Shown here: positions 2,661 to 51,172 of the stretch, piece by piece
Layout of the letters: each line of letters begins with the position of its first letter
Numbering within the stretch: the stretch's first letter is position 1
Assembly (NCBI GenBank): GCA_950295325.1
Contig: OX485806.1
Coordinates: 33,418,001-33,482,000, forward strand
DNA length: 64,000 nt
Origin: Polytrichum commune
Lineage: Eukaryota; Streptophyta; Polytrichopsida; Polytrichales; Polytrichaceae
Direction of reading: 5' to 3'
Program-made: the position numbers and the translations under genes
The notes under the pieces: generated by a model
The model's database searches: none
Told to the model about the DNA's origin: nothing
The model's input: the letters and a program-made list of their open reading frames with translations, nothing else

Positions 2661-3045
2661 TAGAGATTCCCCTACCTCTACGTAAGCCATAATGGACTTC
2701 ACAATAGATCGAGAGTGTCACGTTCCTCTTTTACACAAAATAATGCAAGCATGAATGTACATGAGACACAAATATTGAGAACTTTCAAACTTTGTACATT
2801 ATAATATCTTTACAACTTAAACACATTAATTGTGCTTGCTATGAGCTCGAACCACCCGACCGTAGGCGAGACACAAGGTGATCCTAGCATACCTAGCTTT
2901 ATCCATCTTTATCCATAGTATCTAAGAGATTCTTTTAGAAGCCTCAAATTTTATTAAATTTAAACTGAAGTTTCCTTATCTATATACATAGATCATTTCA
3001 CCGCATGATCCTTTCTTATCTTTTGGCTTAATCACAATCCTTTAG

Positions 3046-3265
3046 TTGGAACTGTCTAATTCCAACCATATTTATTCATTGAGAGTTGTCTAGCTCCAAT
3101 GAATAACATCCATCCGTTGGGAGTTGTCTAACTCCAACGCAAAGATCTTTGATCAGGAGTTGTCTAACTCCTGTGCACAATTCCTTTATGGGTTGTCTAG
3201 CCCTTGTACACCATTCGCTCTTGGGTTGTCTAACCTGATTCTTACTTTGGAGTTGTTTGACTCCA
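3046..3265. repeat. Array of seven covarying short hairpins
   Basis: Seven small inverted repeats at 3046-3065, 3073-3105, 3115-3139, 3154-3173, 3190-3203, 3223-3237 and 3248-3265. Five have the loop GTCT closed by T-A; the last has GTTT and the first is a variant. Stems differ but stay paired: GGAGTT/AACTCC, GGGTT/AGCCC, GAGTT/AGCTC, TTGGAA/TTCCAA. The second extends to about 15 paired bases. I do not recognise the family. Confidence 0.7.
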
Positions 3266-4330
3266 TGCACCATCTGCTCACATGCTAAGTTGAATAAAAT
3301 ATAGTTAGTCATTCGTTCCTACATAATTCAAAATTAAATCATTTAATCTGGATATATCACTGAGAGGGCATATCAACATTTTCATGTTCACAAGTTCGAA
3401 TATCCAATGCATGTCAAAGCTCACTTTACAACTCCACATTTTTCACGCAAATCATTTTCAACTTGTGACTACATCAATTCCGTCACTACAACAACAACCT
3501 TGTACATGTCGAATTGTCTTCTCCAACACTATAATTTTCTTTGTCACCATCTTGTGCACTCAACTTATCCATCAATGTTTGATCATAATCATAGTCCTCA
3601 TCTCCCATACTTCCAAGTAAATGAGCCTCAATACGTGACCCTACTATACAAGTACAAATGTTGTATATTTTCGGGAAGTCCTCCATACATGTACATAACT
3701 ATGAGTTATGATTTGTGTAGCATATGTATAGAAAAGTTCAATTACTACCCCTTTTGTGCACTCACATATATTCATATGTGTTATGCAAGGTGCACCCTCG
3801 GGGCTTAGTGAATGCCTGGGGTGTGGACTCTTTATACAATGTATGAACTGACACGAGTGTAAGAAGGGGTATACTTTAAGGCATTAACATACATAATATA
3901 CATAACGAAGAGGTATTGTTTTTCTCTAGTGTGTACTTGTTGAAAGGCTATTTAGATTCTAAAGTAAACATAAATGTACAAAAGAGCCCATAGGTTTAGA
4001 GATTTTTTTAAATTTTTATTTATTATTTATTTATTTGACAATGGGGATGTGTTGGTTTCAACCAATTCATGTTTTCATTCATTGTTGTCATATGATAAAA
4101 ATCCTTAACCACTACCTTATCCTTTCTAGTTACGGAACTTTGCATTTGGGTTCTAGGTTTTCTAAACTAGAAGTTCTTGGAGAGCTCATGGGCTTCCTTG
4201 AATTTTTCTCCTTGGATTGTGGCTAAGTTATTGTGCTTTTGTCTTTGTTTGTTTGTTGCAATCATTGAGTTACATGCTATGGATGAAAAACGTTTAATGA
4301 CTTTCTCATTGGAAAGTGAAAGTGAATTTT

Positions 4331-5037
4331 ATAAGTGATAAAGGCTGATTTAATTAGTTCAAGAATGAAAGAAAGGTACAAAAACGGAAAATGGTGAAAA
4401 CAAGTTGATTCGGCAAGAAAATGTGGCTTGAGATTTGTGCAACTTTTTAGAGATGGAGTAGAGGAATTGTTGAGGAATGCAAGTTGTTTTATAATTTTAT
4501 TCTATGTTAATAATCTGTCACATTTTCCTCAAAACGCAAGTAAGTCAAACCCCTTACTTATACAATAAACTCTACCTAATTTAAGCATCGAAATAACCTA
4601 CTATGCATATAAATGCACACAAAATGTTTGTGATTGTTGGTTTGCCACCCATTTAGTCTCCTTAAATCACATCTTGCCCTTTCGCCTATGGTTGAGGTGC
4701 ACATCCTACCATAACTCCTAGTCCTAACTAACTAAGTACAAGCATATCTCTCATAAAGTCCTAGCATTCTACAACCAAGAGTCATGCCTTCTCTCATTCT
4801 ACTATCGTGCACTTCCAATAACTAACTCCAACTACTAGCTCAAACCACTACACTAACGACTCCTCTAGAGTCCTTTGACTTGACTTATGTAGCAAAACCC
4901 TAAACTTACCCCTAATTGGAAGTTATCCTAGTTAATAGAGATTACCCAAGTAAACCAAGAGTTATCACAATAAAATCAAAAGTTACCGATGTAGTTAACT
5001 AGTAAGTTACTAGTGCAATGTGTATTACACTAAATAT
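4331..5037. other. No gene recognised
   Basis: AT-rich sequence without a long open frame, a domain or an obvious repeat. Confidence 0.5.
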
Positions 5038-13885: not shown

Positions 13886-14597
13886 AAAGGAAGCTGAGTG
13901 ATCTTGGGTGCTAGTTTTTGTCACTTGGAGGAGTAAATGTTGCGATCTTGCTTCGACTCGGACATTCAAAACTGTCACCTCAACGGATAGTTGCGAGGAG
14001 GTCGACACCGTGTTGCTGCTCCCTCATCAAAGTAAGTCCGTCCTCAAAGCTCGGATGCTCGTTAACTTAACGACTCTCGAGAATAGCGAGGTGGATTGGG
14101 AGATTCTCATCGTCATAAACAACATGCATTGAGGTGCACTCCGAATGAGGAGTCAACAATTTCTTCAATCCAAGCTCAAAGTTGAAATATTCAAGCAAGT
14201 TGCTGAGAGGAGTAGTTGTATCGTAACACCCGGAACTAATTTTTATCGCGTTTTTGGAACCGGGATGCATGATACAAAGAACAGTCCAAACCCTACTTAC
14301 TGGACAAGAGAGGAACAAGGCCTGAGACACAGACACATACACGTGACTCCCGGATTCAACCATGAATTTGAACTTTTATGGATGTGAACTCTAATTCTAC
14401 TTCAGTGATTGATGTTGCATGCGTTCGGCTGCTCAAATTGGTTTGTGAGGAGTATACAAATCGTCACCAGGAGGTTGACATTTCCGTTACTGCTCCTCGG
14501 AATTGGGTTTTCAACGTGACCCATGCGTAATTTTTTATGTTAAGAAAAGGGCGCAAAAGGGCGCAAAATTTGAGCGACATATCAAATATCAAATATC

Positions 14598-15600
14598 GGA
14601 GGAAGGCTATGGAACAGATGCTATTGCTTCCTCCCAGAGGTGGTCCAGCTGCGGAGCTAAAAGTGTCCATTTAAGGCTGCTCGCTTACGTTCAGTTGCTG
14701 CCCCCAGCGCCAAGATTGCAGGCTCAAGTGCCAACGGTGGTCACGAGGAGGTGGTCGACATTGTGTTCATACTACTCCATCACGTTTATCCTCAAGTCAA
14801 TGGGGGACGCTTCACCTTGATCATAGCCTTGAGCTCATGTGTGAACCCGAAATGGATTTACAGAGGAAGGCTATGGAACAGATGCTATTACTTCCTCCCA
14901 GAGGTGGTCCAACCGTGAAGTTAAAAGTGTCCATTTAAGGTTGCTCACTTACGTTTAGTTGTTTCCCCCAGCGCCAAGATTGCAAGCTCAAGTGCCAACA
15001 GCGGTCACGAGGAGGTGGTCAACATTGTGTTCCTACTACTCCATCACGTTTATCCTCAAGTCAATGGGAGACACTTCACCTCGATCATAACCTCGAGCTC
15101 ATGTGTGAACCCGAAATGGATTTACGGAGGAAGGCTATGGAACAGATGCTATTGCTTCCTCCCGGAGGTGGTCCACCTACGGAGCTAAAAGTGTCCATTT
15201 AAGGCCGCTCGCTTACGTTTAGTTGTTGCCCCCGGCGACAAGATTGTAGGCTCAAGTGCCAACAGCAGTCACGAGGAGGTGGTCGACATTCTGTTCCTAC
15301 TACTTCATCACATTTATCCTGAAGTCAAAGGGGGACGCTTCACCTCGATCATAGCCTCAAGCTCACGTGTGAACCTGAAATGGATTTACGGAGGAAGGCT
15401 ATGGAATAGATGCTATTGCTTCCTCCCAGAGGTGGTCCAGCTGTGGAGCTAAAAGTGTCCATTTAAGGCCGCTCGCTTACGTTTAGTTGTTGCCCCGGCG
15501 CCAAGATTGCAGGCTCAAGTGCCAACGGCGGTCACGAGGAGGTGGTCGACATTGTGTTCTTGCTACTCATCACGTTCCTCCTCAAGTCGTGCCTGCTCGT
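14598..15600. repeat. 264-bp tandem array, about 3.8 units
   Basis: GAGGAAGGCTATGGAA occurs at 14599, 14863, 15127 and 15391, an exact 264-bp period (3 x 88). The units differ by scattered substitutions. The fourth diverges after about 15600. A more distant related segment (GAGGAGGTCGACACCGTG) is at about 13996. Each unit carries stop codons in the frames I checked, so no long repeat protein is encoded as the sequence stands. Confidence 0.9.
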
Positions 15601-22221: not shown

Positions 22222-25200
22222 ATGGAAGTGCTAGGATACAATGCACAGCTGCATTGCACATGGAGGCAGGCAGGGAGGGCAACAGCTGGAGTGGTGGGAT
22301 CATCATCATCATCATCATCATCATCTGCACACAGATGTGGCTATGGTGGTGGCCACAGGAGGAGGGCAACAACAAGAAGAGGTGGTGCTGTTGTTGCACA
22401 AGTGGGTGCTGCTTGGGGTGTGGGAAGGAGAGGGTTAGGGTTAGAGTTTAAGGATAGGGAGGAGGGTGTCGTGGTGGGGTTGGCCCTGAGTGAAGGTAAT
22501 GGTGGTGGTGACGGTGGAGTTGGAGGGGGAAGGTTTGGAGGTGGTGGAGGTGGAGGGGATGACGAGGAGAGTGATGGAGATGCCGGTGTCCCAGTACCTC
22601 AGCAATCTTCCGGCATCTTGGCCTGGTAAGTCAATTTTGGGCTCCAGATGCCTCTATGGTGTTGTTGATTTTTGGTGACATTTGTATATGACATGTAAGG
22701 TATGCGGGTGTGGTATTATTCCGTTCATTTGTCATGTTCTCCAACTTCTCCCGATTAGATTTACACAATGAGACTTCTGGTGCTTTAGCAAATCTCTGAC
22801 GAAGCATCAGCGAACATGGGATTGAAAATCGGACCGCCCCTGATTGAGTTAAGGTTATCGGAAGTGCAGGTTTTTTGGTTCCATAGCTAAATACATAGGT
22901 CCTCCAACTGTGTTCATTATTGAGTGTGGAGTAGTAAATAAAAATCGAAGGCCCAGTCCAATCTCTTTCTAAAACATGTGTCTTTTTCGTGTTTGTTCTT
23001 TGATCCTCACCTAACCACCAATCAAATATAGGGCTCTGATTAAGAAAAGTCACAGAATAACACCTGCATACCTTGTATGTGCTCGTGAGGTGCCAGCCAA
23101 TTGTGAGTCTCAAGGTTTTGAAATCTTCAGACTCAAAGTCCTTTTTTAAAAATAGTTTGGATTTAGGGAAGTTCCACATGAATTGTTACATGAATGCGGG
23201 GAGGTGAATTTCTATGGACTTGTTCTTTGCTTGGCAGAACTCTAAACTCTAAACCCTAAACCTTAAACCCTAAGCAGATATGAATTTGGTTCAATTTCCA
23301 ATGGAGGTGAATTCTGCCCAATGTATGTGTGTGCATAGGAAGAGAAGGTTATTGATGTCTTCAATTTAGAAGCTGTTTATTATTCCGATTGACGCACAAA
23401 CTAGAAGTTTCACATGAATTTCCAGACGAGTGTGGGGAGGTGGACGTCTGTAGGAATCATCCTTGCTTGGCAGAATCCTAAACCCTAAACCCTAAATCTA
23501 GACATGAATGCGGTCAGTTTGTTGGATGGAATAACACCAATGGACATGAATTCTGCCCATTATGAGGCATTTGTGATCTACAACTTGTGGGCTCTATTTT
23601 TTTCTGTCATAGTGCAATTTGTGCACTTGCTTTGGGGATGGTGCTGCTGCATTGTAAGTAGAGATGGGCAGAGCATACTACCATGAAGTATAATCACACT
23701 TTTATCAAGAAAGACTTCACTCGATATGAATCTGACTTGATTCTGCAGTACCTAAGGTAGATGGGCCTTAAATGGTTACCTTTTCCAAGAAGCCCGCTTC
23801 TCCTACGACATGAAACACGCGATTATAATTCATATTGACTCCTTAGCCACTTTCCTCATAATATTTGGAGTTCATATGAATATCTAATTTTTATCAAAGT
23901 GAAGATTCTCATGCTCATTAAATGGTCATATAGGTTTCCCGCGAAAATTATGTTGACTATTGAGCTTAGAATGGTTATCATATTTTAAGCACGCAGTCTA
24001 ATCTCTTTCAAACACCTCTTACTAGTATTTATTCTTCGAGCCACACCAAACCACCTGCCACTCAAATATAGGTGTCCGATAAAGATAAGTAACCGAAGTG
24101 GGCGGGTCTACCTCAATAAGGTATGTGGGCCTTATGTGGTCACTCTTCTTAATGGGGCACCTGTATATGTGGGTATGGGCAGATACCAAAAGGACTTCAT
24201 GTGTTATGTTGGGATTGGACTCTGTGCTCAAAATATTGACACCATTTCTAGGTTCAATAGCAAACACAATTGAGAGAGTCTATGTGATCACTCAAAAAGT
24301 AAGAGAATTTTCACTTTGGACTCAAATAACTTTTACATCTCTACCCCAATTCCAAAAGTTGAAAGGACAATGTTCGTGGTTTGCAATTGCTAGCTGGATG
24401 AGTTCCCAAGCCGATCCAATTGCCAAAAATATATATGGAGTTGGAAGTGCCTACAATAGGGCCACATTGCAATAAACTTTCAATACACTTGACAGGAATC
24501 TGGGTCGATTCTGTATAGCTCCATCATGTGGAAACAATCAAGCTTTTGTCTTGAGCAATCTAGGTTGGTAACAGTTGGAAAAGTGAGTAAATTTTTGGCT
24601 CTTTGATTAACATCACCAGGGGTGATGGATTCAATGATTTCTAACAGCTTTCAAATCATCACCTTAATATAATGGTGCAAATTGCATAAATAGTCTTGTT
24701 TGTTTTGGGTGTACCTAAATTGGAGAGGTATACCTATGCCTACCTTGTACTGCTTAAGGTTCTGTCTAATCCTACTTACCATCTGAGGATTAGGCTGGCT
24801 GGTGCTTGTGAACATGCTCAATTGCCTGAAAGTATTTGGTCATTTACAGGTGGCTCAAAATTTTCAGTGACTTGACAATTTTTTTTTGTTGGGAGATCTT
24901 GTACTTTAATGGCTACTATTTATCGGTTGGGAGCACAGGTACATGGACCTAACAAGCAGGCATCCAATCAGCACCAAGGCCATTACAGCTGCCATTTTAA
25001 ATTTCTTGGGGGACATCTTCTGTCAGGTGCTGATCTTTTATACATGCTTGTGTACAAACAGGAAAGTCTTCTTAATAAGAGTGGATCTACTCACAGGATT
25101 TGTGTATCCAGCTTAAGGATTCTGACCTTTCCTCTTTAGATGAAGTCTATTGTATAGCAGTATTGTGGTTCATACCAGTACTAATTTCCTAACGGAGCAC

Positions 25201-38657: not shown

Positions 38658-40708
38658 ATGGTGTTTCACAACAAAATCAGCAGATCACTCGGCTTCCACG
38701 CGCCACCGTAAGAATTTGTCGTCTCCTGAATATTGCACTCAGCTGAGAGTATGATTTTGTGGGGATTGTTTGAATTGCACATTACAGCGAAATAAATTGG
38801 AGTGTCTGAAATGTAAAGTTTGACAAGAAATTATTGAGCAAATGTGCAAATGTGTCATAATTTCCTTTGTGCAAATGTGGCAGAGACCCCTGCCAATGAA
38901 ACTGGTGACGGTAGGCAAGGACCGGGGCGTCTCCTTGCAAAGCGTGTCGGTTGAGTACATCAAAAAAATTCAACGGTACTGCACTTTCGAGGAGATTCAA
39001 CTGCGTCCTAATCCCAAAAAGTCGAGGTGCGCAGCAGCAAGCACTCTTTCCTGCTCTTCTTTTCCCTCATTCTAACTTATTTTCCAATCTTTTTAAAAAG
39101 AAGTTTGCTTTCTTTGCTTTTCCCACCACAGGCCATGCTCGAAGATACCCTTTTACAAATGTGCTCTTCGCCGTGGACCTCGAAATTTATGTTTCTTAGC
39201 GTGAACAGAATTTGCCACATGTGATTGAGGGATAGAATGATGCTGCAAACCCTAATTGAAATCTCAATTACAAACCTCGCCTCAACATTCATTCAGTCCT
39301 CTCTTTCTGCACTGGAGAAAAGAACATCTTTTTTTTAAATAGATGTAGCTTCTTCTACAGTTTTGCAATGTAAGCATAACCTTGCTTTGAGGCTCGTTTT
39401 TCTTAGGATGAACAGATTTTGCCAGTTTGTGCAAGTATATTTTCTTCTGAGTAGATTGCATCCTAGGTTATGTCGAATGTGCACAAAATAGCAACAGGAT
39501 AGGCCAAATGTGGACGGATAAAATGATGCTGTAATTCACATTAGGCCTTCACAAAAACTTCCCTGCCATTTAATTATTCAGTCCTCTCTTTCTGCACTGG
39601 AGAGAAGAACCTGTAGTAGCTTCTAATATTTTGTAATGTAAGCCCGTATTAAAGCTGACAGGAAGGTAAGTGGGTTGTGGCAGTGATGTTAGTACACAGG
39701 TATTTAGCGAGGGCAATCAAGTTCTGCGCTCGATCTCTAGCAAGGATTGGGTGAGTCTCGTAACCACAAGTAATCTGAGAGCTGCATTGCTTCCTGGTAA
39801 AGAACCACCTCTGTTCTGTGGCCTAATTCATCAAACACTAAACCCTAAACCTTAATTCCTAAAAACGTAAACCAATCCATCAAACCCTAAAACCTAAACC
39901 CTATGCTTAAATACTAAACCACTGAAGGTGGTCTAGAGGTTAGATTTTGTTTTCATTACATGCAACAAGCAAAGTATGATAGTCGCCATGCTTGGCAGGT
40001 AGTGCTGTTGGATGAGCGTGGGAAAGAGCTCACCTCAGAGAAGTTTGCAGACTTGATTGCTGATGCAGGAGACACTGTAGGTGACAGCGGTAAACCTTGC
40101 AGTCGGTTTGCAATTTGCACATCTAACAAAGTTCAATTTACAACTGAATAATGTGTATTAGCAGTGTGTTGGTTTCACGTCCTGAGATACATAACGATGA
40201 GGTCAGGTTTCTTGGAGTGGAAATAGAAAAGGTTTAGGGTTTAGGGCTCAAGAATGTCATGATATGAATGCAGGGTGCTAGTGCAGTTGTATTTTGCATA
40301 GGAGGACCATATGGGCATGGGCCACAAGTGCATGAACGAGCAAATGTCAAAGTGAAGCTATCTACCATGGTGCTCAATCATCAAGTGGCATACCTTGTGC
40401 TCCTTGAACAGATTTACAGGTGAGAATTCCTTTTGCAACACCAAGTTAGTCCAACCAAACTGTTTCTAAGGATACCAAGGATGGGGCGAAATGTCAAGCC
40501 CCTTCAATAGATTGTTAGCAATATCTTTCTAACCAACTTCAAGATCAACCCTAAAACTCTGAAAGTATCATCGCACCAACATTGCGTTAAGATTCTTTGG
40601 TTTAGTTGCAGAAGCTTGCCTCATCACACTGAAAGCAGTGATTAAACTTTAAGTGTCCTATGGTGCAGAGCATGGACAATTCTGCGAGGGGAGAAATACC
40701 ATCACTAG
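38658..40708 (+). CDS. rlmH: RlmH-type SPOUT rRNA methyltransferase, organelle targeted
   Basis: Core exons 38886-39026, 39684-39750, 39999-40076, 40274-40419 and 40669-40708, all GT..AG and in phase. From the Met at 38896 the product is 153 residues, the length of bacterial RlmH, which methylates pseudouridine 1915 of 23S rRNA (N3). Motifs: MKLVTVGKDRG at the start, VVLLDERGKELTSE, VVFCIGGPYGHG (SAM-binding knot), LSTMVLNHQVAYLVLLEQ and the terminal YRAWTILRGEKYHH. A possible upstream exon 38658-38707 (MVFHNKISRSLGFHAPP) joins in phase only if the second of two adjacent acceptors (CAG|AG|A) is used; it would add a short Arg/Ser leader suited to organelle import. Otherwise translation starts at 38896. 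Plant homologue At5g10620 is recalled from memory. Role in plastid or mitochondrial rRNA is inferred. Confidence 0.9.
39185..39640. repeat. About 285-bp tandem duplication in RlmH intron 2
   Basis: ATTCAGTCCTCTCTTTCTGC occurs at about 39292 and 39577; GATAGAATGATGCTG (39230) matches GATAAAATGATGCTG (39517); TTTCTTAG..GAACAGA occurs at 39192 and 39405. Confidence 0.8.
39838..39925. repeat. Interstitial telomere-like repeats in RlmH intron 3
   Basis: Degenerate run of CCCTAAA/ACCCTAAA units. The complementary motif TTTAGGG recurs at about 40232-40246 in intron 4. Confidence 0.7.
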
Positions 40709-50458: not shown

Positions 50459-51172
50459 CATTGATTATCCCAATTTGTGTGTGGGGTACTAATTCCCAAG
50501 ACACACTATTTTTCCAAAACTCAAAAGTAGCGAGGGCTGAACTTTTTACTGAGTAGTATTAAATTCATGAAGATGTGCGCATTTACCATGCATTTCAAGA
50601 AAATTGGTGTGTGCTCTAAGGTGCTTGTAGAGTGATAAAAAAAAGCTTATAAGCAAACACATGCTTGTCAAGATGAATAGTGTGGTTATGAATAATATTT
50701 TAGTGGATAGAGTTGCCATGAATAGTATTTATAGTGAAGAGTGCCAAGATGAACATTGCTTCCTAGATCTTTTGGTGGCACTATTTCATAGTGTAAAGAA
50801 ATATAGTATCACCTTCACTACACTAAATATGATATTTAGTGTTTGATAATATTTAATGTTGTGATCACCCTACCCTACTCAACATTAATTTTCAATTCCT
50901 TGACAATTAGTGTTAGAAGATATGCTGGAATTCTCCTTTTATCATTGTTTTTTTTTCCATATTATTATTGACACGAAATTCAAACATGTAACCTCCACAT
51001 ATTACCATCATTGATATTTAGTGTTTCAATTTACATTTGATGTTACTTTCATAGGGTTATTAATATTTAGTGTATGCGTTCATATTTAGTGTATCAAACA
51101 CTAAATATCATATTTATTGTAGTTTCCCTCACGCATTATTAGCTCTCCCTCATTAATTGGGATAATCAATTG
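50459..51172. mobile_element. Miniature element R7, copy b, split by an R2 insertion
   Basis: Ends CATTGATTATCCCAATT and AATTGGGATAATCAATTG. The inverted copy at 51693-52061 aligns across it, except for the TA-flanked element at 50821-51119, which is inserted after ATCACCTTCAC. Confidence 0.8.
50821..51119. mobile_element. TA-flanked element R2, subfamily copy d, nested in R7
   Basis: Palindromic ends CACTAAATATGATATTTAG and CTAAATATCATATTTATTG, flanked by TA. The interior differs from the 360-bp copies (TTTGATAATATTTAATGTTG) and includes extra ATATTTAGTGT motifs, so it is a distinct subfamily; the fragment at about 45151 belongs with it. Confidence 0.8.

Follow-up and report, generated by a model that had tools for sequence, protein, structure and literature searches.

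Palindromic repeated motifs (RM) have been described in the long terminal repeats (LTRs) of Sireviruses (Ty1/copia), where they form clusters ahead of the TATA box that have been proposed to be cis-acting; nearly all of them carry a CGG-CCG core, with Tnd-1 listed as the one exception to this signature, and the copies mostly share more than 85% identity (Bousios et al., 2010; PMC2829016). Within the set compared in that paper, LTR palindrome arrays were described as specific to Sireviruses. Concerning maize, a further study states that Ty3/RLG elements are generally without an obvious peak of such structure, and that these structures are supposed to be kept for cis-regulation despite attracting small RNAs (PMC10760457).

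Here, we describe an array of this sort in a window of 64 kb (the whole stretch of Polytrichum commune DNA that was analysed). Like the Sirevirus RM, it consists of short dyad-symmetric palindromes clustered in the upper half of an LTR, upstream of a TATA-like box, and the motif sequences differ between elements; Sireviruses carry at least eight copies per element. Unlike in the Sirevirus RM, its core is GGRRTT-AGAC-AAYYCC and not CGG-CCG, and its stems covary between units, while the pol of related elements is Ty3/gypsy with a chromodomain and not copia. Judged from its sequence, the array appears to work in its anatomy like a Sirevirus palindrome array and is not a member of a Sirevirus family; it looks like a palindrome cluster of a known kind, but in a Ty3/gypsy-related LTR and with a new core. 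The LTR palindromes of maize Sireviruses are reportedly hotspots of small RNAs, a result said to come from Bousios and colleagues in 2016. The window array shares with them the hairpin-forming cluster in an LTR cis-region, and differs from these copia palindromes, with their motif CACCGGACNNNGTCCGGTG, in its AGAC-type core. No chromovirus with such an array was named in the titles and first lines of abstracts among the literature matches listed, a set covering few subscription papers.

The hairpin array

Inspection of the sequence, its inverted repeats and its fold revealed seven short hairpins at 3043-3265 of the window. The features of the locus are as follows.

2711..2715, no strand: GAGAG, left copy of the 5-bp target-site duplication (sequence; family-wide test)
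2716..3361, minus strand (sense 3361 to 2716): almost certainly a solo LTR, 646 bp (end alignments, duplication test, primer-binding site, homology)
2974..2986, minus strand: putative TATA box TATATAGATAAGG (motif match; LTR sense position 375, counted from 0)
3043..3265, minus strand: hairpin array of seven units, probably in U3 (sequence, repeats, fold)
3043..3068, minus strand: hairpin w1, GTTGGAA..TTCCAAC type, loop GTCT at 3054-3057
3072..3106, minus strand: hairpin w2, with extension TTATTCATTG/CAATGAATAA, loop at 3088-3091
3115..3139, minus strand: hairpin w3, loop at 3126-3129
3154..3173, minus strand: hairpin w4, CAGGAGTT/AACTCCTG, loop at 3162-3165
3190..3203, minus strand: hairpin w5, GGGTT/AGCCC, loop at 3195-3198
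3224..3235, minus strand: hairpin w6, GGTT/AACC, loop at 3228-3231
3248..3265, minus strand: hairpin w7, TGGAGTT/GACTCCA, loop GTTT at 3255-3258
3362..3366, no strand: GAGAG, right copy of the target-site duplication (sequence; family-wide test)

In sense, the loop reads AGAC (GTCT on the plus strand) in six hairpins and AAAC in the seventh. A sequence-only reading of the window had placed seven hairpins within 3046-3265 and had listed the stems GGAGTT/AACTCC, GGGTT/AGCCC (with a T-G wobble), GAGTT/AGCTC and TGGAGTT/GACTCCA, all of which were found again. The constant T-GTCT-A that it proposed holds in six of the seven hairpins, the last one having GTTT closed by T-G, and the stem extension, given there as nine pairs, comprises ten exact pairs (3072-3081 with 3097-3106). 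The hairpin observation is thus confirmed as real, and the reading built on it is partly supported.

Folding of the 231-nt stretch with the array gave a z of -4.5 on the plus strand and -4.6 on the minus strand, with none of 200 shuffles as good on either. The motif GTTGTCTARC has five matches in the window, all of them inside the array, where 0.17 would be expected. Additionally, perfect hairpins (stem of at least 6, loop of 3-8) amount to 9.7/kb in 56 array-like regions from the fetched loci, window copy included, vs 2.4/kb in the remaining window, and when hairpins were searched by their stems alone, 74 of 196 loops were exactly AGAC. Chance pairing as the origin of the hairpins was rejected. 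A scan of the 64-kb window against Rfam 15 returned no match at gathering score. Judged from the repeats in the window, the units of the array appear to be related through tandem duplication.

Borders and copies of the repeat

The window copy starts with TGTCACG at 2716 and reaches ATATCACT at 3361. Most family copies end in TG...CA; at the high end most have TATCACA, and the window copy has TATCACT (CT, not CA). These borders were aligned across 20 low-end and 30 high-end loci, some rows stopping short of the border. The flanks agree at 4 or 5 of 5 bases in 9 of 14 copies, vs 9 of 182 pairs taken from different loci, and those of the window copy agree at all five (GAGAG); the test started from 30 loci, 16 of which were dropped since an end was unrecognised or the length out of range.

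A partly decayed, near-complete copy of the window type (L082, G000:C6:22314901-22319400) was also fetched. Its LTR ends in sense with GTGTGACA, and three bases on TGGTATCATAGC follows, equal to 11 of the 12 bases of a primer-binding site (PBS); this PBS-like site is at 1055, and a second LTR stands 2.9 kb away in the same direction. Examined by eye, L082 is the one same-strand pair at an element-like distance among the candidates listed, and its 5' LTR is alignable in part only. A PBS was present beside none of the 14 solo copies, and a pattern combining the window-type LTR end with a PBS had ten matches, all with 3 mismatches, the inspected ones being AGAC-family or other LTRs and none of them demonstrably of the window type. 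The longest plus-strand frame of L082 had no Pfam match. A zinc-knuckle-like stretch was seen, by eye only, near 2967, before the 3' LTR, and a tandem repeat occurs near 1907-2265.

Because of the shared borders, the flanking GAGAG, and the PBS and second LTR of L082, the feature is almost certainly a solo LTR of an LTR retrotransposon, 646 bp long and of minus sense. The sense was set to minus because two PBS-pattern matches (L031 and L033) were found next to the hairpin core with their sense reversed: the first PBS pattern, which took plus as sense, had eight matches, these two being the ones beside the core. The PBS of the window-type copy L082 and homology to the LTRs of elements with pol give the minus orientation as well. 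A MITE or a Helitron was ruled out by the TG...CA ends, the 5-bp duplication and the PBS. With the target duplication and the PBS of the window-type copy placing the array inside an LTR, the earlier suggestions of a stand-alone structured RNA and of an unknown repeat are not supported.

Copies are numerous. The 16-mer GGAGTTGTCTAACTCC has 309 exact copies in the 408-Mb genome, the reversed control having 0, and relatives of the array stretch gave at least 60 matches genome-wide (40 scored of 645 candidates); in a further genome search 40 of 262 candidates were scored. Core counts vary among the copies. The genome search that the sequence-only reading had named as its check against a single locus therefore found the array dispersed genome-wide. 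Adjoining the LTR, a direct duplication of ~140 bp with 87% identity lies at window positions ~2389-2521 and 2521-2662.

Related elements with genes

Two further stretches (L069 and L070), in each of which the hairpin core occurs twice with the spacing of an element, were retrieved. Specifically, L069 has protease, reverse transcriptase (RT), RNase H, integrase domains, SH3_Tf2-1 and a chromodomain above cut-off, with the integrase core rve below it, as well as a PBS (TGGTATCAGAGC) 2 nt past the LTR and a PPT-like AAGGGGGAGAT ahead of the 3' LTR, which diverges from its partner LTR after 774 bases. Judged from these predicted domains, L069 is a Ty3/gypsy chromovirus, sharing with that group the RT, RNase H, integrase, SH3_Tf2-1 and chromodomain. 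L070 presents 93-98% identity with it in aligned pieces and has RT, protease and integrase matches, its chromodomain being below cut-off.

The chromovirus LTRs with a matching array hold 9-10 hairpins each, and the core on the sense strand of L069 and L070 is GGAGTT-AGAC-AACTCC. The LTR of the window is 75% identical to that of L069 over 155 bp, the likeness being mainly in the array, and the window and chromovirus LTRs have a hairpin order in common, with the TTCATTG-extended hairpin before the GTTGGAATT hairpins. By this homology, the window element is most likely of Ty3/gypsy origin. Unlike a full Ty3/gypsy chromovirus, the window copy is itself a solo LTR without genes, the pol evidence coming from the related L069 and L070 only.

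The two LTRs of L070 (538-1492 and 6976-7884) mismatch at 1 of 909 aligned bases, and the 5' LTR lacks exactly one 46-bp hairpin unit that the other has. Replication slippage, one of the origins suggested earlier, is in part borne out by this pair, in that the number of units shifts by whole units.

Concerning the place of the array, the TATA-like box of the window lies 71 bp downstream of the point where the last loop starts. The TATATAGAT motif occurs 72-73 bp after the last core in 4 of 11 window-type copies, window included; the TATA-like pattern had no match in 7 of the 11 copies inspected, and in L069 120 bp separate the last loop from the nearest downstream TATA. Since a TATA-like motif follows the array downstream in sense, the array probably sits in U3, upstream of this box. 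In the 5' LTR it would then belong to the promoter DNA, and in the 3' LTR to the 3' end of the RNA.

Covariation of the stems

Seventeen hairpins, seven from the window LTR and ten from L070, were compared in a gapless alignment with kinship ignored. The core is conserved in 16, 16, 17 and 17 of the 17 units at its four positions and is exactly AGAC in 15. Of the 153 stem cells 79.1% pair, vs 70.4% in shuffles, and 13 cells are double-changed, vs 5.5; none of 500 shuffles reached either value. Counted per pair, neither double changes (5 vs 4.0, reached by 168 of 500 shuffles) nor further pair types (10 vs 10.2, reached by 347 of 500) exceeded shuffles in these 17 units, and the alignment slid by +1 also scored high (0.225 vs 0.299). 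The compensation between units represents a small number of old events.

A wider survey of 88 LTR-like regions detected cores in 80 and yielded 611 distinct 48-mers, off-target matches included. Stem positions 3-8 of these 48-mers pair above column shuffles (position 3: 0.68 vs 0.36), and positions 1 and 2, which had been used in the detection, do not (0.72 vs 0.71 and 0.58 vs 0.63). Detection required an AGAC-like core, and 392 hairpins in six types were used further. Within hairpin types, across old copies, changes of the inner stem are mostly one-sided, the exceptions with double changes being type 23 at position 7 (10 of 42) and type 27 at position 3 (5 of 12). In the mixed type 26, too, double changes affect 45, 21 and 33 of 98 hairpins at the outer positions 7-9, of which 27, 16 and 21 are Watson-Crick, where slid partners reach up to 36. 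The compensatory stem change claimed from the window sequence thus stands mainly between tandem units and is mostly not seen in inner stems within types across copies.

Sense G-U was not preferred over A-C, either in the 392 hairpins of the six types (102 vs 91 of 2,089 cells, p 0.47; stem ranges picked after the within-type result, with type 26 positions 7-9 left out) or in the 17 units (9 vs 9 cells). Changes are mostly one-sided and G-U equals A-C, and there is therefore no sign, for either strand, of an RNA fold kept in the present copies; the wobble test says little on the era when the element was active. We read the whole as pairing that was maintained as the units diverged while the element was active, and that is decaying in dead copies.

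A second hairpin-rich LTR family

A PBS-anchored sample of 18 loci from two patterns, biased and with some places present twice, contained the AGAC family at L031, L033 and L074 (with L031 and L033 corresponding to the L069 and L070 elements) and, at L035, L073 and L080, another LTR family, unrelated in sequence, without the AGAC core and with varied loops. Six copies of this second family were aligned:

L035:1505-2424
L070:5314-6232
L071:116-1034
L069:200-1114
L080:513-1448
L073:564-1436

Each copy holds 5 to 12 perfect hairpins of at least 6 bp. In a 68-pair structure, derived from the very sequences tested, 3 pairs are compensatory, vs 0.7 in shuffles (5 of 500 reach; 0-1 when slid), and the count of further pair types does not exceed that of shuffles (150 of 500 reach it). 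The family is abundant (4,008 candidates, 40 scored), with LTR pairs ~6 kb apart, and one copy has a weak match to RNase H (27.7 bits vs a cut-off of 29.8), a hint of Ty3/gypsy. Few hairpins were found at other loci of the sample: one at L036/L076 (one place), two at L032 and three at L038.

Interpretation

With a probability somewhat better than even, and by analogy with the Sirevirus RM clusters, we regard the window feature as the upstream-promoter palindrome array of an old solo LTR, cis-regulatory and turning over by whole units. Each unit would be a cis-regulatory module of palindromic form, bound by protein as a dyad-symmetric site on double-stranded DNA, located in the enhancer part of U3 and multiplied by tandem duplication. 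The stems would stay palindromic because two half-sites must match, and inverted-repeat copying, perhaps re-matching the arms, could help in this. In the 3' LTR, where it would be transcribed within the RNA 3' end, the array could form hairpins feeding host small-RNA silencing. The fold z, about equal on both strands, and the equal counts of sense G-U and A-C show no strand preference and are in line with this reading. Two points speak against a dyad site, namely that an asymmetric near-constant core is unusual as a spacer and fits loop recognition, and that paired stem changes between units are not predicted by one fixed half-site. The reading as a whole is further weakened by the TATA-like motif, which 4 of 11 copies have and which in L069 is more distant, by the lack of a Pfam match in L082, and by a likeness to chromovirus LTRs that lies mainly in the array.

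A near-constant loop on covarying stems would also suit an array selected as a folded nucleic acid, in which AGAC stem-loops of U3 RNA or single-stranded cDNA bind Gag or another factor by their loops and the stems are free to drift if still paired. The excess of double-changed cells that no shuffle reached, the 3 compensatory pairs of the second LTR family and the strong fold of the array all point this way. We nevertheless consider it unlikely, as sense G-U is not preferred over A-C, inner-stem changes within hairpin types are mostly one-sided, counts of double-changed pairs and of further pair types stay at the level of shuffles, the loops of the second family vary, and the covariation comes down to few independent events in statistics that ignore kinship. 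That the chromovirus-type LTR arrays were selected for their fold, in a packaging-like step, with the second family being hairpin-rich independently, is similarly doubtful.

Equally likely as selection of a folded form is a mutational by-product without function, fold-back template switching in reverse transcription or replication making and re-perfecting the palindromes and slippage multiplying the units. The whole-unit difference of 46 bp between the near-identical LTRs of L070, the variable core counts among copies and the inner stems of present copies, changing mostly on one side, are consistent with such an origin. It has difficulty, however, with a core kept unaltered as AGAC in 15 of 17 units from two distant LTRs whose spacers differ, with the share of exact AGAC among the loops searched by stems alone, and with the retention of the array in a young element as well as in diverged solo LTRs. 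Finally, one tandem unit drifted at a single locus and pairing by chance is highly improbable: the units do look related by tandem duplication, but the 309 exact copies of GGAGTTGTCTAACTCC against none of the control, and paired changes in excess of shuffles, contradict it.

The arrays of the chromovirus LTRs together with the second hairpin-rich family suggest that separate transposon lineages reach the same promoter architecture. These arrays also offer a test of whether such palindromes serve transcription or folding, and of whether or not they are targets of host silencing.

Further hairpins and repeats

Additional hairpin repeats were observed in the fetched loci and in the window. In L037, cctttggAGAccaaagg occurs three times, in an LTR-like setting and with a 65-base spacing, at 793, 858 and 923 when counted along the 1400 bases that precede the PBS. 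In the 1400 bases upstream of the PBS of L077, the hairpin gaccctctcgGAACcgagagggtc is found five times (one of them a base shorter), at 18, 157, 437, 576 and 715, mostly with a 139-base spacing. The window itself harbors a 10-bp hairpin with a changing loop, acactaaata-NNN-tatttagtgt, at 5027, 19247, 19599, 30630, 50820 and 54514, and a related form at 51082; it looks like a dispersed small repeat. A tandem repeat with a 264-bp unit (3.8 copies, 90% matches) occupies 14597-15588, and short runs of AACCCTA and AAACCCT units, which we take to resemble plant telomere repeats, are located at 23238-23273 and 39833-39903.
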